NCBI GenBank assembly: GCA_003141815.1
Contig: PLNQ01000112.1
Span: 1-35,871, forward strand
Length of the DNA: 35,871 bases
Source of the DNA: Acidimicrobiaceae bacterium
GTDB lineage: Bacteria > Actinomycetota > Acidimicrobiia > Acidimicrobiales > RAAP-2
Direction of reading: 5' to 3'
Part shown: positions 19,481 to 34,624 of the stretch, piece by piece
Numbering within the stretch: the stretch's first letter is position 1
Layout of the letters: each line of letters begins with the position of its first letter
Position numbers and translations under genes: made by a program
The notes under the pieces: generated by a model
The model's input: the letters and a program-made list of their open reading frames with translations, nothing else
Databases searched by the model: none
What the model was told of the DNA's origin: nothing

Positions 19481-19518
19481 TGCGAAACCGCTCCCACCAG
19501 GTAGTTCAATAATTCGAT

Positions 19519-19547
19519 TTGCATTTTCCTTAAAACCCCGCAACAAT
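19519..19547 (+). promoter_or_regulatory. Possible whiB promoter
   Basis: TTGCAT (19519-19524), a 17-base spacer and AACAAT (19542-19547) resemble a sigma-70-type promoter about 55 bases before the WhiB start, in an AT-rich stretch after the VWA stop. Match to consensus is partial. Confidence 0.3.
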
Positions 19548-19601
19548 GACACCGTTGTAATTACATCGGTGGTAATTTCCGCCGACGGGGAGGATCGCCA
19601 G

Positions 19602-19877
19602 GTGGAAATCGTCGAACTGTTGAGCGGTATGGAAGATCGTGGCTGGCAAGCGCGATCGAACTGCATGGGCGTGGATCCGGACCTTTTCTTTCCCGAGCGT
19701 GGTGCGTCCACCCGGGAAGCCAAAGAGGTCTGTCGCGGGTGTGTCGTGCGTGAAGACTGCCTGGAGTACGCGCTCGAGAACGGTGAGAAGTTCGGAATCT
19801 GGGGCGGCATGAGCGAGCGCGAGCGTCGGCGACTTCGTCGAGCGCGCGCGATCGAACGTCGCGCGCAGGCCGGTTAA
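19602..19877 (+). CDS. whiB: WhiB-family iron-sulfur transcriptional regulator
   Basis: A small actinobacterial regulator that binds a [4Fe-4S] cluster and usually acts together with the principal sigma factor. Its four cluster Cys are visible: one in SNCMG, two in VCRGC and one in EDCLEYA. They are followed by the turn GIWGGMS and a basic tail (ERERRRLRR) for DNA binding. DPDLFFP is the typical segment after the first Cys. GTG 19602 follows GGGGAGG with eight bases between; an ATG at 19629 would also keep all domains. It resembles the WhiB2/WhmD cell-division group in layout, but the subgroup was not verified. It ends four bases before the convergent formiminotransferase stop. Confidence 0.9.
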   Translation: MEIVELLSGMEDRGWQARSNCMGVDPDLFFPERGASTREAKEVCRGCVVREDCLEYALENGEKFGIWGGMSERERRRLRRARAIERRAQAG

Positions 19878-19881
19878 GCGA

Positions 19882-20697
19882 CTACGCCAGTCGAGCTTCG
19901 ATCGTCTTTTCGTAGCTCAGATCTAGTTGGTCCCAACGCAAGGGGTCTTGCGTTCGTAGCAACGACTCGGGAATGAGGCCCACCAACTCCGCGTGGTCGA
20001 TCGCGCCCACCGGCATCAGGTCCGCGACGTCGTCGTAGATCGTCGAAGGTCCAACCACTAAGGGCGAAATCAGATTGCAACTGATCTGCGTGAACGAACC
20101 CACACGAAAGGCGAGCGCGCGCACCTCGGGGCGACGAACGGCCTTGGCGACGGCCTTACCCTCATCGAGCGAGATGCCCCGTACCCAGAGATTCCACGCG
20201 ACGAGCACGCCCCTCGCACCGAGGGCGCTGGCGCCCCACTTGGCGTGGGGAACCTCCGGTCCGAGATCGGGGGTCAGTGTTCGAAACGCCCCTCGGCGGA
20301 CGTCGGGAAGTGACCGACTGGAACCATCAGGGAGCGGCCCGTAGAGAAAGACCGGCAGGTCGAAGGTGGTCGCCAACCAGGCCGCGGTCTCGTCTCGCAG
20401 CGCCACGGCTACGTGAGCATCTGATTCGTCGAGGGCGACGAAGGGCACGACGTCGAGGACCCCGAAACGCGGGTGTACGCCCGCGTGGTCTCGCAGATCG
20501 AGTGAGTCCGTTGCCTGGCTCGCGAGCGCGCGTACGTCGCGGCGCAGTTCAGCGCGGTGGTGAATCAACGTGAAGACGCTGCGATTGTGCGTATCGTCAC
20601 GGTGACGATCGCGCAACGAATCGCCGGCGGCGAAACTCAGCGCGTCGAGGACGTCGAGACGTTGTCCCTCGGAGATATTGACAACGCACTCAAACAA
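19882..20697 (-). CDS. Formiminotransferase-domain protein (glutamate formimidoyltransferase type)
   Basis: A 271-aa single-domain relative of the N-terminal half of FtcD, which moves a formimino group from formiminoglutamate to tetrahydrofolate. Family motifs: VVNISEGQ at the start, HNRSVFTLIH, HAGVHPRFGVLDVVPFVAL, LPVFLYG and FRTLTPDLGP, and a C-terminal domain with VGSFTQISCNLISP. The cyclodeaminase half is absent, as in many actinobacterial copies. No histidine-degradation gene is near, so the actual substrate is open. The TTG start at 20697 is nine bases after the stop of the upstream WhiB gene on the same strand, suggesting co-transcription. Confidence 0.85.
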   Translation of the reverse strand: MFECVVNISEGQRLDVLDALSFAAGDSLRDRHRDDTHNRSVFTLIHHRAELRRDVRALASQATDSLDLRDHAGVHPRFGVLDVVPFVALDESDAHVAVALRDETAAWLATTFDLPVFLYGPLPDGSSRSLPDVRRGAFRTLTPDLGPEVPHAKWGASALGARGVLVAWNLWVRGISLDEGKAVAKAVRRPEVRALAFRVGSFTQISCNLISPLVVGPSTIYDDVADLMPVGAIDHAELVGLIPESLLRTQDPLRWDQLDLSYEKTIEARLA

Positions 20698-20706
20698 GAG
20701 GTTCGC

Positions 20707-20958
20707 TTAGTGAAGATCGCGATTAAAGAGGCGCACGCGACGACGTTCGCGTAGTAGGCGGCGGCGCTCTCGCTCGCTCTTGCCACCCCACACGCCATGA
20801 TCGATGTGATTGTCGAGTGCGTAGACGAGACATTGACTTGCGACTGGACACGTGACGCAGATTCGTTGAGCGATGATGACGCCCACGCCGTCACGGGGAA
20901 AGAAGGTCTCTGCTGGATACTCGCGACACTTCCCGTCGGCCATCCATTCGGTACTCAT
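20707..20958 (-). CDS. whiB: WhiB-family iron-sulfur transcriptional regulator
   Basis: Second WhiB protein, 83 aa. The four cluster Cys are in GKCREYP, ICVTC and SQCLVYA; then GVWGGKS and a basic ERERRRLLRERRR tail. AETFFP replaces the usual DPDLFFP. ATG 20958 has GGGAGG five bases upstream. The leader just before that site contains three tandem 12-base repeats (20980-21015), which is unusual for a whiB leader. The gene runs into the formiminotransferase gene. It is a paralogue of, not a copy of, the WhiB gene at 19602: sequence between the motifs differs. Confidence 0.9.
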   Translation of the reverse strand: MSTEWMADGKCREYPAETFFPRDGVGVIIAQRICVTCPVASQCLVYALDNHIDHGVWGGKSERERRRLLRERRRVRLFNRDLH

Positions 20959-20979
20959 ACTTACCTCCCTTCTTTCTAC

Positions 20980-21015
20980 TTCTACCCTTACTTCTACACT
21001 TACTTCTACACTCAC
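20980..21015. repeat. Three tandem 12-bp repeats in the whiB leader
   Basis: Plus-strand units are TTCTACCCTTAC, TTCTACACTTAC and TTCTACACTCAC. They lie 22-57 bases upstream of the WhiB ATG on the minus strand, in the probable leader or promoter. Each unit differs from its neighbour by one base. Copy-number change could alter spacing, or the units could be a protein-binding array. Confidence 0.7.
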
Positions 21016-21163
21016 AGTAGCGACCTCGCGCGTCACCATCTGCCACCTTTAGTTCGCGTGTTCACGAGGATTGCGCGTCTTATAACACCCTTAAAGATCA
21101 TTTATCGAACTCCAGTAGAATGAAGGAAGTACGCGCGTTTGTAACGCAATCGTAAGGAGTCTC

Positions 21164-21442
21164 GTGAGCCAGGTCCCGACAACAGAAGTCATCGAGGTCG
21201 TTGACCCGGTGGGTCACGTCCAAGTCATCTACCTCGGACCGGTGGCCCCGCACTGGGAGTGCCGGATGGTCTTCGGCGACGAGGAGCAGATCCAGGCCTT
21301 CGTTGACCGCGTGGACGCGCGACTTCGTTTTCTTCCTCCCCACGACCCGCAGTTTCGCCGCAACCGCGAACGCGTGAACCGTGACGCGGAACGAGAGAAC
21401 CTACTCGTCGAGTGGAACCTCGGCTACGACGAAGAGTCCTAG
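21164..21442 (+). CDS. Conserved-looking hypothetical protein (92 aa)
   Basis: The family is not recognised. GTG 21164 is preceded by GTAAGGAG at ideal spacing. The sequence has a beta-like N-terminal half (VIEVVDPVGHVQVIYLGPV), a central PHWECRMVFGDEEQIQAFVDRV, and a charged helical C-terminus rich in Arg and Glu. No signal peptide, membrane helix or metal site is seen. Its stop overlaps the convergent DUF2342-like stop by four bases. Good codon composition and the ribosome binding site make it a likely real gene. Confidence 0.65.
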   Translation: MSQVPTTEVIEVVDPVGHVQVIYLGPVAPHWECRMVFGDEEQIQAFVDRVDARLRFLPPHDPQFRRNRERVNRDAERENLLVEWNLGYDEES

Positions 21443-22569
21443 GCCAGCGGCGAGTTCGTCACTCGCTCGTACCATGCGTCAGGGTTGTTGAGTTCGCCCG
21501 CGCTCGGCAGTCCGTCCACGCGCAGTAACGCACCAAAGACGCTGAGTGAGTGCTTCTCCACGAGCGCCGACACGAAGGCCGTTGCCGCGTCGTGATGCGG
21601 TCCTTGAGTCGAGATGCCAAAGAGTGCGGCAGCCGCGTCCTCACCACGCGCGTCGCTACGTCGGTGTCTGGTGTAGGCCTCGGCCAGGGCGGGGCGTGGT
21701 CCGAGCAGCTTCTCAGTGATGTCCTGCGCCGCGGCGCAGAAGAAGGCGAGCAACACGCTCGCAGCCGCATTGATGGCGCGCGTGGCGTCGCTTTCTTCGG
21801 GCACCTCGATACCGTCGAGCAGTGATTCGGGATTGTTCATCATGTCGTTGATGTCGCCCGACTCCATCATTCCCTGCAGGCGTCCCATGAGATCGCCCTG
21901 GATGGCGTTGGCCTCGTTGACCGTGTCGATGAGCAGGGCTCGCAAGGCGTCACCGGTGCCCGGCTGAGAGAGGACCAGCGACGCCACGAACTCTTGGGCG
22001 AGCGCGAAGACGTAGACCTCGTCATGCTCCAATGACCACTCACTGGCGAAGTTGGCCAAGTTATTGACGACGAGCAGGTGCTGGTCATTCAGACGCGGCA
22101 GGGGCAACACGGCGAGCGACCACGCCCTCGCCGAGAAGTGGCCCGCGACCGATCCCATCTGAAAGCCCGCGAAGAGTGGTCCGATGGTCGAAGAGATCCG
22201 CGCCATGAGTTGATTGTTCGCATCCGCGTCGTCGAGCTCTTCGCTCGTCGTCGGCGGTGTGCTCGTGGCCATCGGATTCATCAAGGGACGCCATTGCTCG
22301 AGAGCGGCGAGCGTGAGGGCCGAACGATTCACCGCCACCACCGTTGGTTCACTCGAAACGCCAAAGAGGGCGTCGACGTGTCGTCCCACGAGCGGTGCCA
22401 ACTCTTCGAGTCGTTGGCGTTCGATGGGCAGGGGATTGGGGTCACCGTCGTCACCCCGGGCGATGTTGAGGGCGAGCTGGGTGGCCGTCGTGTACCAAGC
22501 GTCGGGACCCTGTTGACTCAACATCGAAAAGATGTCGCCGAACATGTCGCCGAAGGGGTTGGTCGTCAC
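21439..22569 (-). CDS. DUF2342 (zinc metallopeptidase-fold) protein lacking HExxH
   Basis: A 376-aa relative of the actinobacterial zinc-dependent peptidase family COG5282/DUF2342 (Rv3195 type). Supporting parts are the N-terminal GPDAWYTTATQLAL, the central MGSVAGHFSARAWS, a Pro-rich strand, and the C-terminal GEDAAAALFGI with LRVDGLPSAGELNNPDAW. In active members a HExxH helix follows the acidic EWSLEHDEVY-like segment; here that helix reads FALAQEFVASLVL, without either His. It is therefore predicted to be a pseudoenzyme that binds rather than cuts. GTG 22569 overlaps the stop of the upstream HtrA-like gene by four bases, indicating coupled translation. Confidence 0.8.
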   Translation of the reverse strand: MTTNPFGDMFGDIFSMLSQQGPDAWYTTATQLALNIARGDDGDPNPLPIERQRLEELAPLVGRHVDALFGVSSEPTVVAVNRSALTLAALEQWRPLMNPMATSTPPTTSEELDDADANNQLMARISSTIGPLFAGFQMGSVAGHFSARAWSLAVLPLPRLNDQHLLVVNNLANFASEWSLEHDEVYVFALAQEFVASLVLSQPGTGDALRALLIDTVNEANAIQGDLMGRLQGMMESGDINDMMNNPESLLDGIEVPEESDATRAINAAASVLLAFFCAAAQDITEKLLGPRPALAEAYTRHRRSDARGEDAAAALFGISTQGPHHDAATAFVSALVEKHSLSVFGALLRVDGLPSAGELNNPDAWYERVTNSPLA

Positions 22570-23660
22570 GGCACCAACTTAGAGGGACAGCCGAGCGTCA
22601 CGTTCACGTGGTGCACCGTGGACTTGTGGACGAAGCTGAGCTTCGCCGAGGTGTACGCGGGGGTCAGGTAGAGCGTCGACACCAACTGGTTCCAATTGTC
22701 GATTTCCTTGCCGTTCCAAGTGGTGAGGACGTCGCCCACGGCGACGTTGGCGTGCGCGGCGGCGCTGTAGCGCACGACGCTCTTCACGAGGACGCCCCCA
22801 CCTTGTTCGTCCTTGCCCACGACGCCGAGCTGCGCGTGACAGCCGTGGCCCGTGGCGACGACGACGGCGACCTCGGCCACGAACTGCGCGGCGTACCAGA
22901 AGTGCCGTGACGACAACACGGCCACGACGTGACCGCTCGCGTCGACGGCGATGGCGTCGACGTAACTACTGAGACTCGTGTCGGACTTCGTCGCCAAATA
23001 GCGCACGACGCCCTGGGCGTTGATGAGGGGGTCGCCGAGTGTTGTCATGGACCAGTCGTACTCGGGTGTCTTCGTCGAGCCACGAACGATCGGCGCCACG
23101 GCGACGACCGACGTGCTCGCGGGCATCGGATCAAGTTTCAACGCCGCGATCGGAACGCTCAAGTGCACGATGGAAAAGCCCATCACGCTGTCTCGGCCCT
23201 TCAGGGTCACGGGGAAGTTCACCTTCGTGGCGGTGGAGCCGGTGATCAGCGCGTTGACGGGAATCGCGACTGTCGTCACCGCGAGGTCGTGGGACAGCAC
23301 CAGTGCAGAGACGTGTACGACGTGGCCGGGCGTCGTGATCGTGAGGTCGACCGTACCCTTGGCTGCGGCGCGCGCCGACGCTGGGAGTGAACTGAGCGTC
23401 GTGGCCAAGTGCGCGGGGAGATTGCCGTTAGGGGTGCCAGCGCCCCGGTTGACCATGAGGACGATCCCGCCAACCACCAAGAGGATGGCCATGCCGCCCG
23501 CAATGGTCCGGGGGATGGTGGAGTGGGGCCGCACACTGGTCGTCGTCGCCAGTGTTTCAAAGCTCGGGAGCTCACTCGGGTGTACCCAGGGACGGCTTTC
23601 GGCCGACGGTCGCGCGCGACGGCTTCGGCGCCACCACCTCGATCTATCCCCATTAGCCAC
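22566..23660 (-). CDS. HtrA-like membrane protein with degenerate protease domain and PDZ
   Basis: A 364-aa protein: a basic cytoplasmic N-terminus (RWWRRSRRAR), one transmembrane helix at about 50-70 (GGMAILLVVGGIVLMV), an extracytoplasmic trypsin-like domain at about 95-260, and a PDZ domain at about 270-355 (VAVGDVLTTWNGKEIDNWNQL). Aligned by eye with HtrA, all three catalytic positions are lost: the TNxHV site reads TTVAI, the TDLAV site reads GFSIV, and the GNSGGPL site reads DAIAVDASG. It is thus probably a substrate-binding or scaffold protein. Start GTG 23660 lacks a clear ribosome binding site and may be leaderless. It is divergent from the MreB-like gene across 57 bases. Confidence 0.75.
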   Translation of the reverse strand: MANGDRSRWWRRSRRARPSAESRPWVHPSELPSFETLATTTSVRPHSTIPRTIAGGMAILLVVGGIVLMVNRGAGTPNGNLPAHLATTLSSLPASARAAAKGTVDLTITTPGHVVHVSALVLSHDLAVTTVAIPVNALITGSTATKVNFPVTLKGRDSVMGFSIVHLSVPIAALKLDPMPASTSVVAVAPIVRGSTKTPEYDWSMTTLGDPLINAQGVVRYLATKSDTSLSSYVDAIAVDASGHVVAVLSSRHFWYAAQFVAEVAVVVATGHGCHAQLGVVGKDEQGGGVLVKSVVRYSAAAHANVAVGDVLTTWNGKEIDNWNQLVSTLYLTPAYTSAKLSFVHKSTVHHVNVTLGCPSKLVP

Positions 23661-23717
23661 CTAGTGCAGGCTAGTTACGAAAGGACTCTTGTTGGCATCG
23701 CCCTAACATCGTTACTC

Positions 23718-24722
23718 ATGGCTTTAGACGTCGCGCTTGACATTGGCACCTCGAACACGCGCCTGGCGACCAGTCAGCGCGGCGTCTTATTCGACGAACC
23801 TACGATGGTCGCCATCGACACGAACTCCGGTGTCGTCGTCGAAGTCGGCCACGGCGCACTCGAACTCGTCGGTCGCACGTCACGTCACGTCGTCGTGTTT
23901 CGACCCTTCAATCAAGGCGCCACCGTCGACTTCGACGTCACGGCGCGACTCATCGAGGCACTCTTCGATCGTGCTGGCGTCTCCAAGTTGAGCCGCGCGC
24001 GCGTCGTCATGAGCGTCCCTTCTTTAGCGACGGCCATTGAACGACGCGCACTTCGCCAGGCCGCCATTCAAGCTGGTGCGCGCGAGGTGTCGTTAGTGGA
24101 AGCGCCCCTCGCCGCCGCGATTGGCCTCGGACTACCGGTCCAAGATCCCATCGGATCGGCCGTGACCCTCATGGGCGCGGGCGCGTCCGAGGCGGCGGTC
24201 ATCTCGCTTGGGGGCATCGTCACCGGTGGAGCGCGTCGAATCGGTGGCAACGACGTGGACGCGGCCATCGCGACGTCGCTACGACTCAACGTGGGCGTCG
24301 TCGTGGCCCCCTCCGTCGTCGAGATGCTCAAATGCACACTCGCTTCCGCACTCGGACGAACGACGGGACTCGTCGAAGTCGTACTCGCGCGCAGCGTGGA
24401 CCGAGGTGATCCCGTCGAAGTCGAAGTGAGCGCGGATTTGGTGAACGCGGCGGTGCACGACGTACTCAACTCGACGATTCGCATGATCGAAGAGTGCCTC
24501 AGTGACACGCCGCCCGACCTCTCTCAGGACGTCAGCGCGCGAGGCATGACCCTGGTCGGCGGACACGCCAACTTGAGCGACGTCGCCGAACTCGTCGCCA
24601 CGGCAACGGGGGTAGAGGTCAGCGTGGCTCCGCAGGCCGACCTCGTCGTCATCCAGGGACTGCAGGCCTGTCTCGAGGAGATGGCCTCACTGCACGCGTT
24701 GTTCCGTAGCGCCGACCGTTAG
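23718..24722 (+). CDS. MreB-like actin-family protein with altered phosphate-2 loop
   Basis: A 334-aa actin-fold protein of the MreB group, which forms membrane-bound filaments guiding wall synthesis. Phosphate-1 is intact (LDIGTSNTRLA, near the N-terminus), followed by FDEPTMVAID, the VVMSVPS strand and LVEAPLAAAIGLGLPV. The phosphate-2 loop, normally VDIGGGTTEVAVISLGG, reads TLMGAGASEAAVISLGG: the conserved Asp and the GGT are gone. The adenosine region is also weakened (GMTLVGGHANLSDV for GIFLTGGGSLL). Nucleotide hydrolysis may be slow or lost. Start ATG 23718 has no ribosome binding site. Its stop overlaps the convergent HEAT gene stop by two bases. No mreC, mreD or rodA is in the window. 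Confidence 0.85.
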   Translation: MALDVALDIGTSNTRLATSQRGVLFDEPTMVAIDTNSGVVVEVGHGALELVGRTSRHVVVFRPFNQGATVDFDVTARLIEALFDRAGVSKLSRARVVMSVPSLATAIERRALRQAAIQAGAREVSLVEAPLAAAIGLGLPVQDPIGSAVTLMGAGASEAAVISLGGIVTGGARRIGGNDVDAAIATSLRLNVGVVVAPSVVEMLKCTLASALGRTTGLVEVVLARSVDRGDPVEVEVSADLVNAAVHDVLNSTIRMIEECLSDTPPDLSQDVSARGMTLVGGHANLSDVAELVATATGVEVSVAPQADLVVIQGLQACLEEMASLHALFRSADR

Positions 24723-25351
24723 TCGTCGGTACGTCGAAGCTGCGTGACCGCCGAGCGGACCTGCCAGTCACGGTCCTCGCCGGCTTCGTCGAGCGCGGCG
24801 TCGATATCGGGGCCCTCGAAGTTCGCGAGCGCCACGATGGCCCGACGACGGATCGGCGGCTTGTCTTTCAGCGACGCGATGATGGTCGATCGTGCCCGGT
24901 CGTCGCCGATGGCGCCGAGCGCGGCGATGGCCGACTCACGACAGCGCGCGTCGTCGTGGTCTTTGGCGACATTACAGAGGGTCTGCACTGCGTTGACGTC
25001 GAGGTGCTCACCGAGCGCGAAGGCGGCGCCCTCGACCACGAGTGCGTCCTCGTCGCCGAGCATGCCTTCGACTTCGACTAGCACGGATTTATCCTCCAGT
25101 GGCGCGTGTGCCAACTGCTGGAGCGCGTCGCGACGAACTTCGACGTCGCTGTCGCGTAGCGCTCGGAGCCAGAGGTCGGTCGCCATAAGTGATTGGCGCA
25201 CTAGTCCGCGAAGCGCCAGCACGCGACGCCGCGTGATGGGCGATTCGACGTTGGCCATCAGCAGCGCGGTACCCTCCGCACTTGGAGACAAACTCGCGCG
25301 TAAGAAATCGTTTTCGAAGGGCTCAACTATCGTGGTCTCATCACTAGTCAC
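24719..25351 (-). CDS. HEAT-repeat protein
   Basis: A 210-aa soluble all-helical protein made of about five HEAT-type helical pairs. The repeat signature recurs: DSDVEVRRDALQQLAH, DEDALVVEGAAFALGE, DDARCRESAIAALGAIGDD, KPPIRRRAIVALANF and DRDWQVRSAVTQLRR. Such solenoids are protein-interaction scaffolds; a lyase role (PBS-lyase-like) is not supported without a partner phycobiliprotein. The start is GTG 25351, giving a 36-base divergent spacing to the PDZ-Lon gene. Longer upstream starts would run through that gene's promoter and coding start. It sits between MreB-like and membrane-protease genes, so an adaptor role there is a guess. Confidence 0.78.
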   Translation of the reverse strand: MTSDETTIVEPFENDFLRASLSPSAEGTALLMANVESPITRRRVLALRGLVRQSLMATDLWLRALRDSDVEVRRDALQQLAHAPLEDKSVLVEVEGMLGDEDALVVEGAAFALGEHLDVNAVQTLCNVAKDHDDARCRESAIAALGAIGDDRARSTIIASLKDKPPIRRRAIVALANFEGPDIDAALDEAGEDRDWQVRSAVTQLRRTDD

Positions 25352-25387
25352 GACCCCATTCCAGCACGACAGGGAACTCGTCGGTGG

Positions 25388-26488
25388 TTGAGCAAGTTTT
25401 ACGTAATCGTTCCAATCGTCGTCGGGCTCTTGATCGTGCTCGGAACCAGGAACACCAACGACTACCTGATCTCGCCGGGCAACGCGACGCCGGTCGCGCC
25501 ACTCGTGAAGATCCACGGTGTTGCGACGAACCCCACGCACGACGAGATCATGCTCGCCGACGTGTATGAGCAGCAGTTGAACTATTTTGGTTGGATCAAG
25601 GCGCACTTTCAGTCCCATGTGCAGATCATCACGGCCAGCCAACTCGTGGAACCGGGCATTCCACTCGACGAACTCCTCTCGCAAGGTTTTCTTCAGATGA
25701 GTGATGCCAAACAGGCCGCCGAAACGGCCGCCTTCCGCGCGGTTGGTTGGTCGGTCCCGGCGACAAGAACGGGCACGGTGGTGACGGCCGTCGTCGCGCC
25801 ATCACCGGCGAGGTCGGCCGGCGTGCATGTTGGCGACGAGATCGTTGGCGTCAACAACACGACGATTCGTTCGGGTTGTCAACTCATCGCTTCCGTGCAC
25901 TCGCTCGCGCCCGGCACGGCGTTGACATTGCACGTGCACGCCGTGAAGATCTCGAACTCCGGCGTGTTGACGTACGGGGCGTCGATTATCGTGAAAGTCG
26001 CCACGGCGAAAGCACCCGCGAACGTCGCAAGTTCCGGGTGCCCCGGGGTGACGGGGGTCGACCGCTCGTACCTCGGCGTCGCCGTCGAGGATGGCTTCAG
26101 TTACAAATTGCCCGCGACCGTCTCGATCAACACCGCAAGTATTGGCGGCCCCTCGGCCGGACTCGCGATGACGTTGACGCTCATTAACGAACTGACGCGC
26201 GGCTCTTTGACCGGCCACCACGTCATCGCCGTCACCGGTACCATCGACGCTCAAGGCAACGTCGGACCAGTCGGCGGCGTCGAGCAAAAGGCCGTAGCGG
26301 TGGCTCGCGCGGGGGCGTCGTACTTCTTCGTACCCGATAGTGGTGGCGACGTCGCGGCTGCGCGCGACGCGCGCCAAACGGGCCTCAAAATAATTCCTGT
26401 CACGACGCTTCAGCAGGTCCTGAGCGAACTGCGCTCACTCGGGGGCGCCAAACCCCAGCCCGTTACTAAGCCGTCCTCAGCGTTGTAA
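25388..26488 (+). CDS. Membrane-anchored PDZ-Lon (S16) protease, YlbL/Rv3194c type
   Basis: A 366-aa predicted extracytoplasmic serine protease. One N-terminal membrane helix (FYVIVPIVVGLLIVLG), a PDZ domain at about 115-195 (GVHVGDEIVGVNNTTI), and a Lon-type proteolytic domain at about 230-350. The Ser-Lys dyad is intact: Ser256 in GGPSAGLAM and Lys301 in GGVEQKAVAV, 45 residues apart as expected for S16. There is no ATPase domain, which is normal for this family. The start is TTG 25388, about ten bases after AGGGAAC. Its neighbours include an HtrA-like and a DUF2342-like protein that have lost their own catalytic residues, so it is the only clearly active protease of the block. Confidence 0.9.
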   Translation: MSKFYVIVPIVVGLLIVLGTRNTNDYLISPGNATPVAPLVKIHGVATNPTHDEIMLADVYEQQLNYFGWIKAHFQSHVQIITASQLVEPGIPLDELLSQGFLQMSDAKQAAETAAFRAVGWSVPATRTGTVVTAVVAPSPARSAGVHVGDEIVGVNNTTIRSGCQLIASVHSLAPGTALTLHVHAVKISNSGVLTYGASIIVKVATAKAPANVASSGCPGVTGVDRSYLGVAVEDGFSYKLPATVSINTASIGGPSAGLAMTLTLINELTRGSLTGHHVIAVTGTIDAQGNVGPVGGVEQKAVAVARAGASYFFVPDSGGDVAAARDARQTGLKIIPVTTLQQVLSELRSLGGAKPQPVTKPSSAL

Positions 26489-26526
26489 GCCAAAATATAG
26501 GTTCGCCACGCCGTAGTCTTGAAGGA

Positions 26527-28194
26527 ATGGACGACCGTCGAATAACCTCTACGACGCGCCCGTCGTCGTCCGATATCGTTCGGATGAACTTCACGACGGT
26601 GCGAAAAGGCGGGCTGGACCCGAACGAAGTCCGCTTGCACCTCGAGGCCGCGGCGCGCGAGATGGGTCACCTCGAGAACCGAGTTCGCGAACTCCAAGAG
26701 CAGGTCAACGAGGCCCAGCGCAAAGCCGCGAATCCTACCTTTGATGAGGCGACACTCACGGCCGCCCTCGGCGCGCAGAGTGCCGCGATCCTTCGCTCCT
26801 CGCACGAAGAAGCCGGGCGCGTCACCGCCGAGGCCCAAGAGCGCAGCGCCCAGGTCTTCACCGAGACCCAACAGCGCAGCGCCAGTCACCTCATCGAAGC
26901 GCAAGAGCGCGCGACGGCGTTGATTACTGAAGCCGAGAACACCGGGGCCACAATCGATCACGACGCTCGTTTGGCGGCCGAGCGACTCATCGACTCTGCC
27001 AAGGTCAACGGCGAGGCACTCGTCGATCGCGCGAGGGAGCAGGGCCGCGCGATTGTCGAACAGTCGAATGAGGCGCGCCGCAACGTACTCAACGACCTCG
27101 CGATTAAGCGAAAAGCGCTGCATCTTCAGATCGAACAGCTGCGCGCGGCGCGTGACACGTTAGGCTCTTTCATAGCAACAGTGCGTCTTCAGGTTGATGA
27201 CGTGTTGTCTGGAATAAACGGTTCCGACGAGGTCGCCCGCGGCGCCGCACTCGAGGCGCTGCGAATGCAGCCCGCGGCGCCGGAACCTACCGAAGAGGAG
27301 CTGCTGGCTGGCACGCCTCTACGTGAAGTGCCCGACGCTGCGCTTGAGACAGGAGAAGACGCCACGGTGACGAAGTCCCGATCACGCAAGCCGCCCAAGA
27401 GCGCCGCGCCCGTCGAAGAGTCACTGTTAGAGGACGACCCGTCCGGTACGGACGTCGTGAACGAGATCTTCGCTCGACTTCGTAAGGCCACTCTCGAAGA
27501 GCGGGGTGTCACGATACCGCCGCCCAAAAAGGCGGCCGCGCACAAACCCGAAACGCCCGTTGGCGTGCTCTTTCGCCGTCGCGACGCGGCGCTCGAAGAG
27601 TCGCTCGCGGTCCTGACGCGTCGAGTCAAGCGCGCGCTCCAAGACGACCAGAACATCATGCTCGAACGTCTGCGCGGTGTAAAGGCGATGATCACCACCG
27701 AACTCGAGGACGAGCACGACCAGCGCTCTCGTTACGCCGAGGCCGCCTTTGAGGCTCTCGAACATGCCGCCCAAGCAGGCGTGCAGTTCGCACGCGAAGA
27801 GGGCGGGGCTGCGGGTGCGAACGTCGAGAAGCAGTCGTTAGAAGATTGTGCTGCGGATCTCGCGGTCACCATCGTGTTAGCGCTGCGCAAGCGTATCCTC
27901 TCCGATAGCAGTGGTGACGGGCCCGAGCGCGTGAACGCGGCGTACCGCGAGTGGCGTGGTGCGCGCGTCGAACGACTCTGCACCGATGCGGCGCGACGAG
28001 CCTTCCACCTCGGTGTCGTGACGGCGTCCGTGGGACGATCGATTCGATTCTTTGCCGCGCCGAACGACGCGCCGTGCGACTTGTGTTCGCACGACTCTGA
28101 GACCGGTGAACGCATCGCGGGAGAGAAGTTTCCCAGTGGTTCTCCGTACCCACCGTTGCACGCGGGCTGCGCCTGCACTGTCGTACCCGTATAA
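26527..28194 (+). CDS. DivIVA-like coiled-coil protein with phage Mu F-like C-terminal tail
   Basis: A 555-aa protein. Residues about 15-65 look like a DivIVA N-terminal domain (VRKGGLDPNEVRLHLEAAA, then coiled coil LENRVRELQEQV), which in other proteins binds curved membrane at poles and septa. A long Ala/Glu/Arg coiled coil runs to about 230, then a low-complexity acidic linker, then a second helical region. The last 40 residues hold C517-DL-C520, H522 and PLHAGCAC (H545, C548, C550), the arrangement seen at the end of phage head-morphogenesis proteins of the Mu F/SPP1 gp7 type, probably a zinc site. I infer a cell-pole scaffold with a domain borrowed from a phage protein. It lies between the PDZ-Lon and UPF0182 genes, all on one strand. 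Confidence 0.7.
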   Translation: MDDRRITSTTRPSSSDIVRMNFTTVRKGGLDPNEVRLHLEAAAREMGHLENRVRELQEQVNEAQRKAANPTFDEATLTAALGAQSAAILRSSHEEAGRVTAEAQERSAQVFTETQQRSASHLIEAQERATALITEAENTGATIDHDARLAAERLIDSAKVNGEALVDRAREQGRAIVEQSNEARRNVLNDLAIKRKALHLQIEQLRAARDTLGSFIATVRLQVDDVLSGINGSDEVARGAALEALRMQPAAPEPTEEELLAGTPLREVPDAALETGEDATVTKSRSRKPPKSAAPVEESLLEDDPSGTDVVNEIFARLRKATLEERGVTIPPPKKAAAHKPETPVGVLFRRRDAALEESLAVLTRRVKRALQDDQNIMLERLRGVKAMITTELEDEHDQRSRYAEAAFEALEHAAQAGVQFAREEGGAAGANVEKQSLEDCAADLAVTIVLALRKRILSDSSGDGPERVNAAYREWRGARVERLCTDAARRAFHLGVVTASVGRSIRFFAAPNDAPCDLCSHDSETGERIAGEKFPSGSPYPPLHAGCACTVVPV

Positions 28195-28214
28195 GAAAGT
28201 CGTAGGCTCGTCCC

Positions 28215-31112
28215 GTGCGCAGTCCCACCGACGTCCCTCAACGACCGCGTCGCCTCGGACGATTGTCACGGCGGTTCTGGATTGGGCTGATTGTCGTGGT
28301 CTTGCTGGTGGGTTTTCTCTCGCTGCGCAATCTGGCGGTCCTTTGGACTGATCAGATGTGGTTCTCGTCGGTCGGGTTCTCGAGCGTCTTTTCGACGCTG
28401 TTCTTCGTCAAGGTCGGACTCGGCTTCACCTTCGGCGCGATCTTTTTCTTCATCATGTGGGGCAATCTGTTGCTCACCGACCGATTCGGCGCGCGGGACC
28501 TCTCCTTCGAGCCCGAGGACGAGGTCGTGCGACGCTTCCAGAACGTCGTACGCCCCTACGCCAAGCGCGTCTACGCCGCAATCGCGCTGATCATGGGCCT
28601 CGTCGCGGGGTTGAACGCCACGGGTCAGTGGCAGAAGTACCTGCTCTTCTCGCACGCTCAGTCGTTTCACCAGGTAGATCCGGTCTTTCACAAAGACCTC
28701 GGGTTCTACATCTTCACTCTTCCTTTCGTGTCCTACGTCGTCACGTGGTTCCTCGTCGTCTTGATATTCGCCTTGCTGGTCACGACGGGCTTTCACTTCT
28801 TGAACGGTGGCATCCGCACCACGCGCGTGACGCCGCGCGTCGCGCCTCGGGTGAAGGCCCACCTCTCGGTGATCGGCGCCGCTATCGCGCTCATGAAGGC
28901 GGCCGGTTACCTCATCGCCAAGTGGGAGCTCGTCAACTCCAGCAACGGCTACGTCCAGGGCGCGACGTACACGGACATCCACGCGCGCATGCCGGCGCTG
29001 ACCATCCTCTTCTATCTGTCACTGGCCGCGACCGTGATCCTTCTCTACAACGTGCGCTCGAGGGGATGGTCTCTGCCGGTCGTCGCCGTGGGCCTGTGGG
29101 CCTTCGTGGCGCTCGTCATCGGCGTGCTCTATCCGACGTTCCTCCAAGCCTTGAAGGTGAGCCCCAACCAGCAGTCGCTCGAGTCGCCGTACATCCAGAG
29201 AAACATCACCGCGACGCGCGCGGCCTTCGGTCTCGACAAGGTGCAGGATCATACCTTCGCCGGTTCGACGTCGATTACCCAATCCCAGATCAAGGGCAAC
29301 ATGTTGACGTTGAACAACATTCGCCTATGGGACCCGTCGAGCAAAATCTCCCTCGAGACGGTGACGCGGCGTCAGTCGATTCGTTCGTACTACAACTTCA
29401 CGACGTTGTCCGTGGATCGTTACTTCGTCAACGGCAAGTTGACGCCGGTTCTCATCGGCGCTCGCCAACTCAACTCCAACAACCTGCCCTCGCAGAGTTG
29501 GGTGAACCAGCACCTGCAGTACACCCACGGCATCGGTGCCGCGGTGGTGGCGGCCAACCAGGTCGACCCGTCGACGGGCAATCCGATCTTCGACATCTCG
29601 AACGTGCCGCCTCTCTCTACAAACGGTCTGCCGCTCTTGACCCAGCCCGATATCTACTTCGGCATTGGCTACAACGGCTGGGTCGTCGCGAACTCGAAAC
29701 AGCCCGAACTTGACTACCAGGTGAATACGGGCAAGAACGCCGGCACCCCCGTCGAGACGCACTACACGAGCACCGGCGGTGTTCCGGTCGGCACCATCTT
29801 CTCGCGACTCGCGCTCGCGCTACGCCTCGGTGACTTCAACTTCCTGATCTCGAATCAGATCGACGCGAAGAGTCGCGTGCTCTTCGTGCGTGACGTAAAG
29901 CAGATGGCCCAAAAGGCCGCGCCCTTCCTCACGTTCGACTCCCAGCCCTACGCCGTCGTCGCCAACGGTGAATTGCAGTACGTCCTCGACGGCTACACGA
30001 CGACGTCCCAATACCCCTACAGCGAAGACGCCAATCAGCTCGGCATCAGCACCGGGGGACTGCCCGGAAGCTTCAACTACGCGCGCAACTCCGTGAAGGT
30101 CGTCGTCAACGCCTACACCGGCGCAATGACGTTCTACGCGAACGACCCCAACGACCCGATCCTGAAGGCCTACCGTTCGGCCTTCCCGACGCTGTTCCAA
30201 CCCCTGAGTGCCATGCCTTCGACCATTCGCACGCACCTGCGCTACCCAGGTGACCTCTTCTCGGTTCAGGCCGCGACGTTCGGGCGTTACCACATCACCT
30301 CCGCGACGGCCTTCTACTCCGCGTCGGACCGCTGGCAGATCTCGCCCACGACGGGGGCTGGTTCTCCCTCACAAGCGCTCGCGCGCACCTCGACGCTCAA
30401 CAAAGCTGGCGACGTTATCTCCACGTCGTTTTCCGCGATGAGCCCTGTCTTTCAGGTTGGTTCGCTACCGAACCAGAACAAACAACAGTTGCTCGAGTCG
30501 GTCGACTACGTGCCAGCAGGTAACTCCTCGACGGTGCAGAGTCTGACGGGCTTCATGATCGCCACGAGTGACCCCAACAACTACGGGCAGCTCAGTGTCT
30601 ACGAGACCCCTCGCGGGACGACGGTGACCGGGCCGTTGCAAGCCGACTCGGAGATTCAACAGACCTCCAAGGTCAGTTCGATCATCACGCCCCTCGACCA
30701 ACACGGCTCCAGCGTCATCCTGGGTAACAACCTCACGGTGCCCCTCGACTCGAGCGTGCTTTACATTCGCCCGCTCTACGTCACGAGTACGGCGAACCCG
30801 ATGCCGCAGTTGCGCTACGTCATCGCGGTCTTCAACCAAGACGTCGGAATCGAGCCGACGTTGGCAGGTGCACTGTCCGACGTGTTCGGGGCCAACGTCA
30901 CGGGCATCGCCAACTCGAACCCGGGCAACGGAGGCGGATCGGGCACTACGAACAAGGGCGCGATCGTCGCTTCGTATTTACAGCGGGCCTCGGTGGACTA
31001 CACAAACGCGCAGACCGCGTTGGCTAGCGGAGACCTCGGGCTCTACCAAAAAGACGTCAACGCCATGAATCAGCAGTTGAAGCTGGCCCAGAACGCGCTC
31101 AACAAGGGCTAA
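28215..31112 (+). CDS. UPF0182 family large membrane protein (Rv3193c type)
   Basis: A 965-aa integral membrane protein. Seven hydrophobic helices lie in the first 320 residues (beginning RFWIGLIVVVLLVGFLSLR, with WTDQMWFSSVGFSSVF between the first two), followed by a large extracytoplasmic domain. The family segments VLYPTFLQ, SPNQQSLESPYIQRNI and the Tyr-rich YVLDGYTTTSQYPYS are present. Function is unknown; it is a hallmark of actinobacteria and some cyanobacteria and is adjacent to the PDZ-Lon protease in mycobacteria too. A Gly/Asn linker at about 895-910 and a final helical tail (DYTNAQTALASGDLGLYQKD) end it. GTG 28215 is 20 bases after the previous stop. Confidence 0.92.
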   Translation: MRSPTDVPQRPRRLGRLSRRFWIGLIVVVLLVGFLSLRNLAVLWTDQMWFSSVGFSSVFSTLFFVKVGLGFTFGAIFFFIMWGNLLLTDRFGARDLSFEPEDEVVRRFQNVVRPYAKRVYAAIALIMGLVAGLNATGQWQKYLLFSHAQSFHQVDPVFHKDLGFYIFTLPFVSYVVTWFLVVLIFALLVTTGFHFLNGGIRTTRVTPRVAPRVKAHLSVIGAAIALMKAAGYLIAKWELVNSSNGYVQGATYTDIHARMPALTILFYLSLAATVILLYNVRSRGWSLPVVAVGLWAFVALVIGVLYPTFLQALKVSPNQQSLESPYIQRNITATRAAFGLDKVQDHTFAGSTSITQSQIKGNMLTLNNIRLWDPSSKISLETVTRRQSIRSYYNFTTLSVDRYFVNGKLTPVLIGARQLNSNNLPSQSWVNQHLQYTHGIGAAVVAANQVDPSTGNPIFDISNVPPLSTNGLPLLTQPDIYFGIGYNGWVVANSKQPELDYQVNTGKNAGTPVETHYTSTGGVPVGTIFSRLALALRLGDFNFLISNQIDAKSRVLFVRDVKQMAQKAAPFLTFDSQPYAVVANGELQYVLDGYTTTSQYPYSEDANQLGISTGGLPGSFNYARNSVKVVVNAYTGAMTFYANDPNDPILKAYRSAFPTLFQPLSAMPSTIRTHLRYPGDLFSVQAATFGRYHITSATAFYSASDRWQISPTTGAGSPSQALARTSTLNKAGDVISTSFSAMSPVFQVGSLPNQNKQQLLESVDYVPAGNSSTVQSLTGFMIATSDPNNYGQLSVYETPRGTTVTGPLQADSEIQQTSKVSSIITPLDQHGSSVILGNNLTVPLDSSVLYIRPLYVTSTANPMPQLRYVIAVFNQDVGIEPTLAGALSDVFGANVTGIANSNPGNGGGSGTTNKGAIVASYLQRASVDYTNAQTALASGDLGLYQKDVNAMNQQLKLAQNALNKG

Positions 31113-31139: not shown

Positions 31140-32531
31140 CTAGGAATCGTCTCGAGCGTCGAGGTGTCGAAAAGGATTGAGGAGCCCCTTCGGATCAAAA
31201 ACGTGCTTGATCTTGCGCTGAAGTTCGACGAGCGCCGGGTCCGCGAGCGCCAAGTACGGACCACGTTTGTCGACGCCGAGCCCGTGTTCTCCCGACACAG
31301 CGCCACCGAGGGCGAGGCCAGCGCGAAAGAGTTCGAGTAAGAATTCGTCACGCTTCTCCGCGTCGGGTTGGAAGACCGACAAGTGGACGTTGCCGTCACC
31401 GACGTGACCACAGCCCGCAACGAACGCGCCGTGACGCGTCGCCAGTTCACTGACGCTTTCGAGGAACGACGGCACGGTCGAGCGCGGGACGACCACGTCG
31501 ATGATGTCATTGGCTCCGGCGGCTTTCGCGAGCCAGAAGACTCGCTCGCGCGCTTCGATGAGTTGCGTCGCGGCGGCGCCCTCGAGCACGTACACGTCGA
31601 GCGCTCCGGCCTCCTCGACCAAGGCAGCCGCGGCCACAAGATCGCTCTCTAGCTGCTCGGGAGTTCTCGTCTCGAAGACGACGATAAGGTACGCCGCCGC
31701 CGCGTTAGCGACGTCGGGATTCACGCCGAGGTGAAGATCCGTGCCGCTCGACAGCGAGCTCATGGTGAGTACGTCGAGGTACTCGAGAATCGAGGGTGAG
31801 AGGCCTGAGGAAATCAGGGTGGGCACGACGCGCGTCACGGCCTGGAGATCGCTGAAGGGGACGAGCATGGTGGCGCTGTTCTCGAACACGGGCGAAAGTT
31901 TGAGCGTGACTTCGGTGACGAGCGCGAGCGTCCCTTCACTGCCGACGAGTAACTGCGTGAGGTCGTAGCCCGAAGAGGACTTCACGACCGGTCCGCCCGT
32001 CCGCAGCACGGTGCCGTCCATGAGGACCACCTCAAGGCCGAGGACGTGCTGGCGAGTCACGCCGTGGCGTACCGCGCGCATGCCCCCGGCGTTGGTGTTG
32101 ACGTTGCCGCCCAGCGAGCCAGAGAGTTCGCCGGGGTAGACGGGGTAGTGCAGCCCGGTGCCGAGTAACGCTTGGTTCAGTTCACGTAACGTGATGCCTG
32201 CTTGCACGACCGCGACGTGATCGCGTACGTCGATGCGAAGGACGGCGCGCATCTGGTCGAAGCAGATGACGAGGCCGCCGTTCACGGGCGTCACGCCACC
32301 CGAAAGTCCGGTGCCCGATCCACGCGGAGTCACGGGGACGTCGTGTCGATCGGCCCACGCCACGAGCTTCGCCACTTCTTCGCTCGAATGCGGTCGCACC
32401 ACGGCGAAGGGCTCGCGGTGGCGTTGGTGGAGTGACTCGTCGTGGAGGTCGCTCTCGGCGTGCGCGCCAGCGAAGGTCACGTCACCGTTGACGATCTCCT
32501 TGAGTTCGCCCTGTCGCTGGCTATCGTCCAT
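31140..32531 (-). CDS. FAD-linked oxidoreductase, GlcD/D-lactate dehydrogenase type
   Basis: A cytoplasmic flavoenzyme of 463 aa oxidising a 2-hydroxy acid such as glycolate or D-lactate. The FAD-binding domain shows VTPRGSGTGLSGG (about residues 70-82) and the YPGELSGSLGGNVNTNAGG pyrophosphate loop, then KSSSGYDLTQLLVGSEGTL. The C-terminal oxidase domain has the metal site GCGHVGDGNVH and SGEHGLGVDKR, ending with FDPKGLLNPFRHLD. Length is standard. No GlcE or GlcF partner is adjacent, so it is probably a stand-alone form. ATG 32531 was preferred over the GTG one codon upstream. It is convergent with the UPF0182 gene. Confidence 0.9.
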   Translation of the reverse strand: MDDSQRQGELKEIVNGDVTFAGAHAESDLHDESLHQRHREPFAVVRPHSSEEVAKLVAWADRHDVPVTPRGSGTGLSGGVTPVNGGLVICFDQMRAVLRIDVRDHVAVVQAGITLRELNQALLGTGLHYPVYPGELSGSLGGNVNTNAGGMRAVRHGVTRQHVLGLEVVLMDGTVLRTGGPVVKSSSGYDLTQLLVGSEGTLALVTEVTLKLSPVFENSATMLVPFSDLQAVTRVVPTLISSGLSPSILEYLDVLTMSSLSSGTDLHLGVNPDVANAAAAYLIVVFETRTPEQLESDLVAAAALVEEAGALDVYVLEGAAATQLIEARERVFWLAKAAGANDIIDVVVPRSTVPSFLESVSELATRHGAFVAGCGHVGDGNVHLSVFQPDAEKRDEFLLELFRAGLALGGAVSGEHGLGVDKRGPYLALADPALVELQRKIKHVFDPKGLLNPFRHLDARDDS

Positions 32532-32593
32532 CACCGACGAACCCTACTCTTTGGTCCCACAGCTCAGGTCGGGCATTTTCGTGGCGGACAACA

Positions 32594-32646: not shown

Positions 32647-34287
32647 TTACTTGACGGTGTAGCGGATGCTGGTCCTCTTGCCGCTCGCGAACTTAATCGT
32701 GAGGGTGTAGGTGCCCTTCTTCAGTGTCGTCGCTTCCTTCACTCGAACCGTCAGTCTTGCGCTGGTGGCCCTGAGTACGGTCGCGCTAGTACCCCTAGGC
32801 CCGGTAATCCTGGGTCCGCCGGTGAAGTTCCTACCGATGATCGTCAGGACGACGGTGCGGCCATGAACCGCGGCGCCAGAGACCCTGAGGGCCTTCGGCA
32901 CGGGTTTCACGATGGGCGGTGTGGTGCCCGTGACGACCAACGCGTACGAGAACGTGCCGGCGTCGCCGCTCGCGTCAGTCGTGGTGCCGGTCGCGGTGTA
33001 CGTACCGGCCTTCAACGCGCCAGAGGTGGACACGGCCCCTGAACTAGAGACCGCGACGCTTGGCGAACCAGTGGACTGCGTGTACGACACGGTGCCCTGG
33101 TTGCCACTCGTGGTGAGTTGATCCTTGAAACTCGACGCCGAACCCACGGCGATGGTGTTCGTCACGGGGAGGTTCTGAGAAATCACCTTCGCCTTCGCTG
33201 TGAAGCTGAATGATGCGTCAATCCATGAGGGCGCGCCAGCGCCGCAGATGGTCGCGGCGTGGGTGTCGTTACTCGGGTACGGAGTGGTGTTGACCTCGCA
33301 GAGGACCACCGTGTACGCCGTGCCGGCAACAACGGTCGCTGGCACCGTGATGGTGCCACCAAGGACGGGCGGACTCAACGTCTTGCCGTTGTAGCAGTCG
33401 TTCGAAATGGTGACGCCCGACGCGGGACCGCCGCCTATGGCTGTGGACGTGCCGGTAACGAACCAGACGTCAGCGAGGTACGGCCCAGGTGCGTTGCCGT
33501 ACCCGACCCCGGTACAACTATTCGGTGCGATCGCGGGCGTTGTACCGGCGGCCGCTGCTTGGACCGCTTGGACGGCGCTGCCCCACCAGTAACCGGTGTT
33601 GCCCGTGGCGTCGGCGACGTTGATGAGACTGCCCTCGGAACCCGTCGTTTGGAGCGGCTGGATACTGGGCGGGCTAGGTACCGTGGACTGCGAAGCGTAC
33701 TGAATCAAGTACTCAGCGCCGGTAACGGGCGCTAGTTGCGTGCTCGCAACCGCGATTGCGCAACCAAAGAGTCCGGCGTTGATCTCGGCCTGCGTCGGGG
33801 GGCAGACGCCGTTGGCGTCAGCGGTTGCAAATGTGGCCGGTACTGCGAACGTGGCGATCGAACACGATCCGGCGGTTCCCGCAGGACAGCCGGTGCTGGT
33901 CGCGCTTGGCGCGAAGGTACCAAGGGCACTCGTGTCGGCTTCAGTCGTTGGGATGACGCCCGACGTGCCGACGGCCGCGAGAAGCGAGGCTTCGGCGGCG
34001 ATCCCGGCACCAGAGGACGTGTTGCAGTTAAAGGTGACCACCGTGGTGCCAGCAACGACGCCGACGATCAACGTCTGCCCGGGAACTGCCGTGCCCGCCC
34101 CGGTGACGGTGATGTTGCAGGGTAACGGCGGGGCGGCGTGCGGCGTGCCTGACGCGGCTGACGCGCTGCCGACCGAGATGAGTGTCAGGCCCGCGACCAT
34201 GGCCAGGGCCGACGCGCCCGAGAAGGCGGACATCACCGACGCTCGACGCGTAGGACGAAACTGCGATTTACTAAATGGATTTCTCAT
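32647..34287 (-). CDS. Secreted Ig-like/IPT-like surface protein
   Basis: A 546-aa exported protein. ATG 34287 follows GGAGAA; a long signal peptide (basic RRASVMSAF, then GASALAMVAGLTLISVGSASA) ends at about residue 45. The mature part is rich in Thr, Ser, Gly, Ala and Val, with spaced Cys that could form disulfides (CNITV, FNCNTS, STGCPAG, GSCSI and others). The last 80 residues resemble an IPT/TIG-type Ig-like unit (VVLTIIGRNFTGGPRITGP through KKGTYTLTIKF). No enzyme motif is seen. It has its own promoter candidate and a strong terminator, so it is probably a monocistronic, well-expressed surface or matrix protein. Confidence 0.72.
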   Translation of the reverse strand: MRNPFSKSQFRPTRRASVMSAFSGASALAMVAGLTLISVGSASAASGTPHAAPPLPCNITVTGAGTAVPGQTLIVGVVAGTTVVTFNCNTSSGAGIAAEASLLAAVGTSGVIPTTEADTSALGTFAPSATSTGCPAGTAGSCSIATFAVPATFATADANGVCPPTQAEINAGLFGCAIAVASTQLAPVTGAEYLIQYASQSTVPSPPSIQPLQTTGSEGSLINVADATGNTGYWWGSAVQAVQAAAAGTTPAIAPNSCTGVGYGNAPGPYLADVWFVTGTSTAIGGGPASGVTISNDCYNGKTLSPPVLGGTITVPATVVAGTAYTVVLCEVNTTPYPSNDTHAATICGAGAPSWIDASFSFTAKAKVISQNLPVTNTIAVGSASSFKDQLTTSGNQGTVSYTQSTGSPSVAVSSSGAVSTSGALKAGTYTATGTTTDASGDAGTFSYALVVTGTTPPIVKPVPKALRVSGAAVHGRTVVLTIIGRNFTGGPRITGPRGTSATVLRATSARLTVRVKEATTLKKGTYTLTIKFASGKRTSIRYTVK

Positions 34288-34624
34288 GGATTCTCCGTAG
34301 CTGCTCAATGTTGTCGATGAATCATTAGGCGGTCTTAAAGATTTTTCGCCGTCATAACGACTATAGAGGTGGCCCATGTGTCACACAAGGTGACGACGCA
34401 CCTCGTCAGGTTCGAAAATACGGTTGATACGTGGATCATGTCTCCCTTTGACGCAAGTGCTACGAGAACGTCACGCAAACGTCATTTGCTTCGTCGAACA
34501 ATGATCGCAGCAACATTGGCGAATCTTGACAAAGTGTCACCACTTGAATTCACATATAACTTTCAAGAATTGGATTACAGAGGTTCGACGATTGTTCACT
34601 GATTGCATCGCCGACCGCATATTC
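34288..34624. other. Intergenic region upstream of the secreted protein gene
   Basis: AT-richer than its flanks. It contains the candidate promoter described at 34360-34388. The ABC ATPase gene upstream ends at 34625; no hairpin terminator for it was recognised. Confidence 0.4.
34360..34388 (-). promoter_or_regulatory. Candidate promoter of the secreted surface protein
   Basis: On the minus strand TTGTGT (34383-34388), a 17-base spacer and TATAGT (34360-34365) form a good sigma-70-type match, giving an expected leader of about 65 bases before ATG 34287. Confidence 0.45.

Follow-up and report, generated by a model that had tools for sequence, protein, structure and literature searches.

What holds seven contiguous genes for putative envelope proteins together in an Acidimicrobiaceae genome, and why should three of their products, two with protease folds and one related to MreB, have lost catalytic residues? 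We addressed this question in the window, i.e., the full 35,871-nt stretch of contig PLNQ01000112.1 (GCA_003141815.1), in whose positions all coordinates are given. The seven genes (21439-31112) are real, and their order and strands match those proposed by a first-pass annotation of this DNA: a DUF2342 gene (21439-22569) and an HtrA-like gene (22566-23660) on the minus strand, an MreB-like gene on the plus strand (23718-24722), a gene for a HEAT-repeat protein on the minus strand (24719-25351; PF13646 (HEAT_2), E 1.4e-28), and three plus-strand genes transcribed in one direction, which encode a membrane-anchored PDZ-Lon (S16) protease (25388-26488), a DivIVA-like protein with a predicted C-terminal MuF domain (DivIVA-MuF; 26527-28194) and a UPF0182 membrane protein (28215-31112). 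The spacing reported earlier was also recovered, with gaps of 57 bases between HtrA-like and MreB and of 36 bases between HEAT and PDZ-Lon, and overlaps of 4 bases each for DUF2342/HtrA-like and MreB/HEAT; the HEAT start was refined to a GTG at 25351, shorter than the longest-ORF start. The block extends to the left past its earlier boundary: two WhiB genes and an FTCD_N-domain gene (19395-21039) form a left flank conserved in most of the family, with a WhiB transcription factor (19395-19877, plus strand; PF02467, E 3e-26) in 66/80 named loci, the FTCD_N-domain protein (19882-20697, minus strand; PF07837, E 9e-37) in 67/80, and the second WhiB (20707-21039, minus strand; PF02467, E 9e-20), present in only part of the family, in 34/80. 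On the right, GlcD (31140-32534) was rejected as a block member, as none of 40 order-wide loci gave a GlcD match. Outside the block, the window also carries an AAA_5 ATPase gene followed by a VWA-domain gene (16065-19480), a common pairing in bacteria, and a gene (32647-34377) for a 576-aa protein that looks secreted and has no Pfam match.

The conservation of this arrangement was assessed in 40 order-wide loci (up to 20 kb, around PDZ-Lon), 20 loci of the window's family and 80 named loci from Acidimicrobiales MAGs, many of which have bog or palsa in their isolate name. Within the order, 97 of 99 genomes encode PDZ-Lon, and across the three sets the block genes recur with unchanged order and orientation; the neighbourhood is thus not scattered in related genomes. 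Among the order-wide loci, several of which end at contig edges, UPF0182 was present in 37, HEAT in 35, DivIVA in 34, MreB in 33, HtrA-like in 27 and DUF2342 in 25. In the window's family, DUF2342, MreB, HEAT, PDZ-Lon and DivIVA were present in 20/20 loci, and PDZ-Lon and DivIVA occurred together in 80/80 named loci, with the remaining genes in nearly all that had sufficient contig. The block is colinear in 18/20 family loci and 48/80 named loci, many of the exceptions being truncated or lacking HtrA-like only. Moreover, DivIVA-MuF and UPF0182 lie on the same strand in 147/147 loci, other classes included, and the former directly precedes the latter in 145 of these. The age of the "old functional unit" claimed in the first pass is supported by this conservation: the locus is an old, strongly conserved actinobacterial cell-envelope neighbourhood, and its synteny suggests that the seven gene products may form one complex. 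The mycobacterial-type layout, as in actinobacterial locus L229, resembles the window in that DUF2342 is divergent from PDZ-Lon, with UPF0182 following, and in a DUF2342 without the first His of HExxH; unlike the window, L229 has no DivIVA-MuF between PDZ-Lon and UPF0182, and HtrA-like and MreB were not seen in this short locus. We take the mycobacterial Rv3193c-Rv3194c-Rv3195 neighbourhood to encode UPF0182 (Rv3193c in M. tuberculosis), PDZ-Lon and DUF2342, respectively. In one genome of the window's class (G328), the PDZ-Lon, DivIVA and UPF0182 trio occurs twice, on two contigs (L200 and L201).

PDZ-Lon, the intact member of the block as first proposed, matches Lon_C (E 8e-13) and the SepM family model (E 1e-23). 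Like Bacillus YlbL and streptococcal SepM, it has a single N-terminal TM segment (by hydropathy), a PDZ domain and an S16 Lon domain with a Ser-Lys dyad, formed in the window by the serine of GGPSAG and the lysine of GGVEQK; both residues are kept in all aligned members, with one GGPSGG and one IGPSAG as context variants. It differs from SepM in scoring under the SepM equivalog cut-off, and hence we claim only the YlbL/SepM kind for it, homology to which suggests that the protease domain faces outward. We know of no YlbL/SepM PDZ-Lon in a DivIVA-MuF/UPF0182 block. Hydropathy further predicts several N-terminal TM segments for UPF0182 (PF03699, E 1e-243), one for HtrA-like and no clear one for DUF2342, MreB, HEAT or DivIVA. 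Based on these counts, DivIVA-MuF, MreB-like, DUF2342 and HEAT probably lie on the inner side, UPF0182 in the membrane, and the PDZ-Lon and HtrA-like domains on the outer side.

The strongest novelty of the locus is the phage-type tail that had been noticed on the DivIVA-like protein. This protein shares an N-terminal DivIVA domain (PF05103, E 1.7e-7; present in 15/15 members) and a coiled coil with the polar scaffold DivIVA/Wag31, but differs from it by a 215-residue C-terminal domain (about 27547-28191). An AlphaFold2 model of these ~215 residues (pLDDT 94.5, pTM 0.91) returned nothing useful from the PDB and 66 matches at E<=0.001 from BFVD (predicted viral structures), where MuF-type matches reached a probability of 1.00 and where, among the 50 matches listed, the named ones were mostly head morphogenesis, minor capsid, MuF-like or portal proteins. 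At the sequence level, PF04233 matches 15/24 members (best 3.6e-5, the shown scores being under the Pfam cut-off), the window protein has a PHROG minor head protein match (E 9e-4), and tblastn against phages yielded nothing beyond short, weak matches, several of which fell in head morphogenesis proteins. The domain also shares with phage MuF/SPP1 gp7 minor head proteins a terminal CxxC...H..CxC (C177, C180, H205, C208 and C210, in C-terminal-domain numbering), and the invariance of all five residues in 44 relatives suggests a metal site. Convergence on a zinc knuckle is an unlikely source of the MuF likeness, as the fold match spans the whole domain. The AlphaFold2/BFVD match and PF04233 together confirm the tail, which on the modelled fold is a phage-capsid (MuF) domain captured by a putative cell-pole scaffold protein and missed by current annotation models. 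In contrast to the phage proteins, DivIVA-MuF is chromosomal, fused to DivIVA, conserved across classes and always found beside envelope genes; no phage head gene was mapped next to it in the 147 loci, where not all other ORFs are annotated and where its neighbours are PDZ-Lon and UPF0182. The fusion is present in 42/297 genomes of the phylum, belonging to the order, to other members of its class and to some families of other classes. At L053:14282-16520 and L103:12254-14088 its coding sequence is broken into two ORFs that overlap, which may reflect a frameshift or an assembly error. The window's genome has a separate ordinary DivIVA (G000:C57), adjoining a SepF-like gene, and a separate canonical MreB (G000:C165), followed by an MreC-like gene (both neighbours named from their translations); hence, the DivIVA and MreB of the block are specialised paralogues.

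DUF2342/Zincin_2, a full-length PF10103 match (E 3.7e-24; residues 26-366), has AQEFVASL at the zinc site, in place of the HELTHH of intact members. Of 26 DUF2342 proteins sampled across the order, only three (L056, L065, L070) retain HExxH; in most, the first His has been lost and the Glu kept. As this His is missing in other loci of the phylum too (e.g., L229), its loss is common in the DUF2342 family. The HtrA-like protein is recognized by Pfam through its PDZ domain only; when the exported part was modelled with AlphaFold2 (pLDDT 90.6), it matched DegP/DegQ/DegS in the PDB (Foldseek probability 1.00, E 4e-15), and it has a trypsin-like fold with a C-terminal PDZ, His, Asp and Ser all being absent from the aligned triad columns. 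L046, L055 and L056 retain the triad, which nearly all other members have lost. The gene itself has disappeared from 18 of 72 named related loci, in which DUF2342 abuts MreB and the other block genes remain; HtrA-like is therefore dispensable in some lineages and not essential to the module. In nine loci (L035, L038, L039, L042, L047, L048, L098, L100, L103), the PDZ-Lon strand carries a further HtrA gene, located upstream of DUF2342, whose product keeps an active-site motif (GNSGG and, in most, TN[AN]H). Some genomes thus have both an active and a dead HtrA around DUF2342; at the window's block, the active second copy is missing. The MreB-like protein is a full-length MreB_Mbl match (PF06723, E 2.7e-77) that does not reach the NCBI MreB subfamily cut-offs, and its phosphate-2 reads VTLMGAGASEAA instead of the canonical VVDIGGGTTETA (DxGGGT). 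Most of the order has a canonical MreB; the window's genus and several further lineages have lost the Asp or the Gly-Gly of phosphate-2. Motif comparison thus bears out the earlier picture of one intact protease, two protease-fold pseudoenzymes (DUF2342 without HExxH, HtrA-like without a triad) and an MreB-like protein with a changed phosphate loop.

These losses are not private errors of the window: close homologues share them, and since the genus as well as a large part of the order has them, an assembly fault is excluded as well. Loci of other classes hold, in the same neighbourhood, DUF2342 with HEVAH/HEVSH, HtrA with TNAHVV and GNSGG (encoded on the opposite strand, with MreB and PDZ-Lon on either side) and an intact MreB; given these intact versions in deep relatives, catalytic activity was probably ancestral for all three. 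Mapped onto a UPF0182 tree, the catalytic states require at least 4 changes for DUF2342, 5 for MreB and 3 for HtrA, for which sequences gapped at the Ser column, the window's own included, were left unscored. Between the window and its close relative L105 (isolate palsa_458; dS about 0.45), dN/dS was 0.056 for DUF2342, 0.107 for HtrA-like, 0.053 for MreB-like, 0.206 for PDZ-Lon, 0.050 for DivIVA, 0.092 for UPF0182 and 0.148 for HEAT, where ratios near 1 for L136, L140, L141 and L184 were set aside as probably derived from a wrong overlapping ORF. Ratios of 0.05-0.11 indicate that DUF2342, HtrA-like and MreB-like are constrained, which excludes their neutral decay between close species. Judged by motifs and substitution ratios, catalytic residues are gone from two proteases and an MreB filament protein that selection nevertheless maintains.

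Considering these data, we propose, with a probability of about 45%, that the locus is an ancient actinobacterial module for envelope growth or division, with PDZ-Lon, the DivIVA-MuF scaffold and UPF0182 as its core and the pseudoenzymes as structural parts. Counting against it, the conserved synteny takes in the WhiB and FTCD-like genes, which have no obvious envelope role. Their linkage would fit a rather unlikely account in which old synteny keeps the genes together with no shared complex and the degraded enzymes are on their way out, as would the clean loss of HtrA-like and the independent, stepwise losses on the tree; however, strong purifying selection acts on the degraded proteins between close species, DUF2342 and MreB-like are kept in all 20 family loci, and the same-strand adjacency of DivIVA-MuF and UPF0182 spans classes. 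The first-pass proposal that HtrA-like and DUF2342 are dead-protease adaptors, handing substrates to PDZ-Lon on a scaffold at the cell pole, gained no support, and we consider it very improbable. The pseudoenzyme states and the PDZ of HtrA-like on which it draws are confirmed, both sequences are constrained, and HtrA-like, with its one TM segment, could share the outer face with PDZ-Lon. DUF2342, however, has no TM segment and is therefore probably cytosolic, across the membrane from the PDZ-Lon protease domain, and from the inner side it could hardly pass outer-side substrates to PDZ-Lon. Moreover, PDZ-Lon stays where HtrA-like is missing (18/72 loci), and in deep relatives both proteins are active near PDZ-Lon.

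PDZ-Lon could alternatively serve recovery from a division checkpoint, removing a membrane division inhibitor after being placed by DivIVA-MuF and tuned by the adjoining WhiB regulators. Its SepM/YlbL kinship, the WhiB genes flanking the block and the precedent of B. subtilis YlbL, a PDZ-Lon that helps to clear the division inhibitor YneA (PMC6051672), favour this idea; no inhibitor gene was identified at the locus, and we regard it as improbable. The link to division in our envelope-module reading is drawn from the presence of DivIVA and MreB, from YlbL, and from M. tuberculosis Rv3193c ("hypothetical" in the paper), transposon mutants of which were underrepresented in a division-complex mutant (PMC8093794).

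Gene order and orientation, domain content, catalytic states, the polarity of the losses and purifying selection carry the module reading, and from these we infer a mechanism. The cytoplasmic DivIVA end would self-assemble at the poles or septum, and the cysteine-rich MuF end would dock a partner, most likely UPF0182 or PDZ-Lon, although the choice of partner is a guess. Docking would place the UPF0182/PDZ-Lon membrane pair at growth or division sites, where PDZ-Lon could trim or remove an extracytoplasmic envelope regulator. Active enzymes once encoded in this neighbourhood would have given rise to HtrA-like, DUF2342 and the MreB paralogue, which would today serve in binding or as structural subunits without catalysis, HtrA-like as an optional PDZ receptor on the outer face and DUF2342 and MreB-like probably as inner-face partners. 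Tentatively, and at somewhat less than even odds, we further suggest that early actinobacteria acquired a phage portal-docking (MuF) domain as a fusion to DivIVA, that this domain is now the docking end of a scaffold for the UPF0182/PDZ-Lon pair at the pole or septum, and that HtrA, DUF2342 and MreB around it repeatedly turned structural in place.

In the open-access literature, which omits most subscription journals, we found no paper on DivIVA joined with MuF, on the function of DUF2342 in bacteria or on UPF0182 with PDZ, and no function for UPF0182. Each protein of the block belongs to a known family or is a degraded member of one; new are the DivIVA-MuF fusion and the in-place passage from enzyme to pseudoenzyme. 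The latter forms a natural series, in which the proteins are active in deep relatives, have lost their residues here but remain constrained, and in one case were later deleted. If our reading is true, UPF0182, a large family, would gain a physical context and a partner, and a capsid-assembly domain would have been reused for bacterial morphogenesis.
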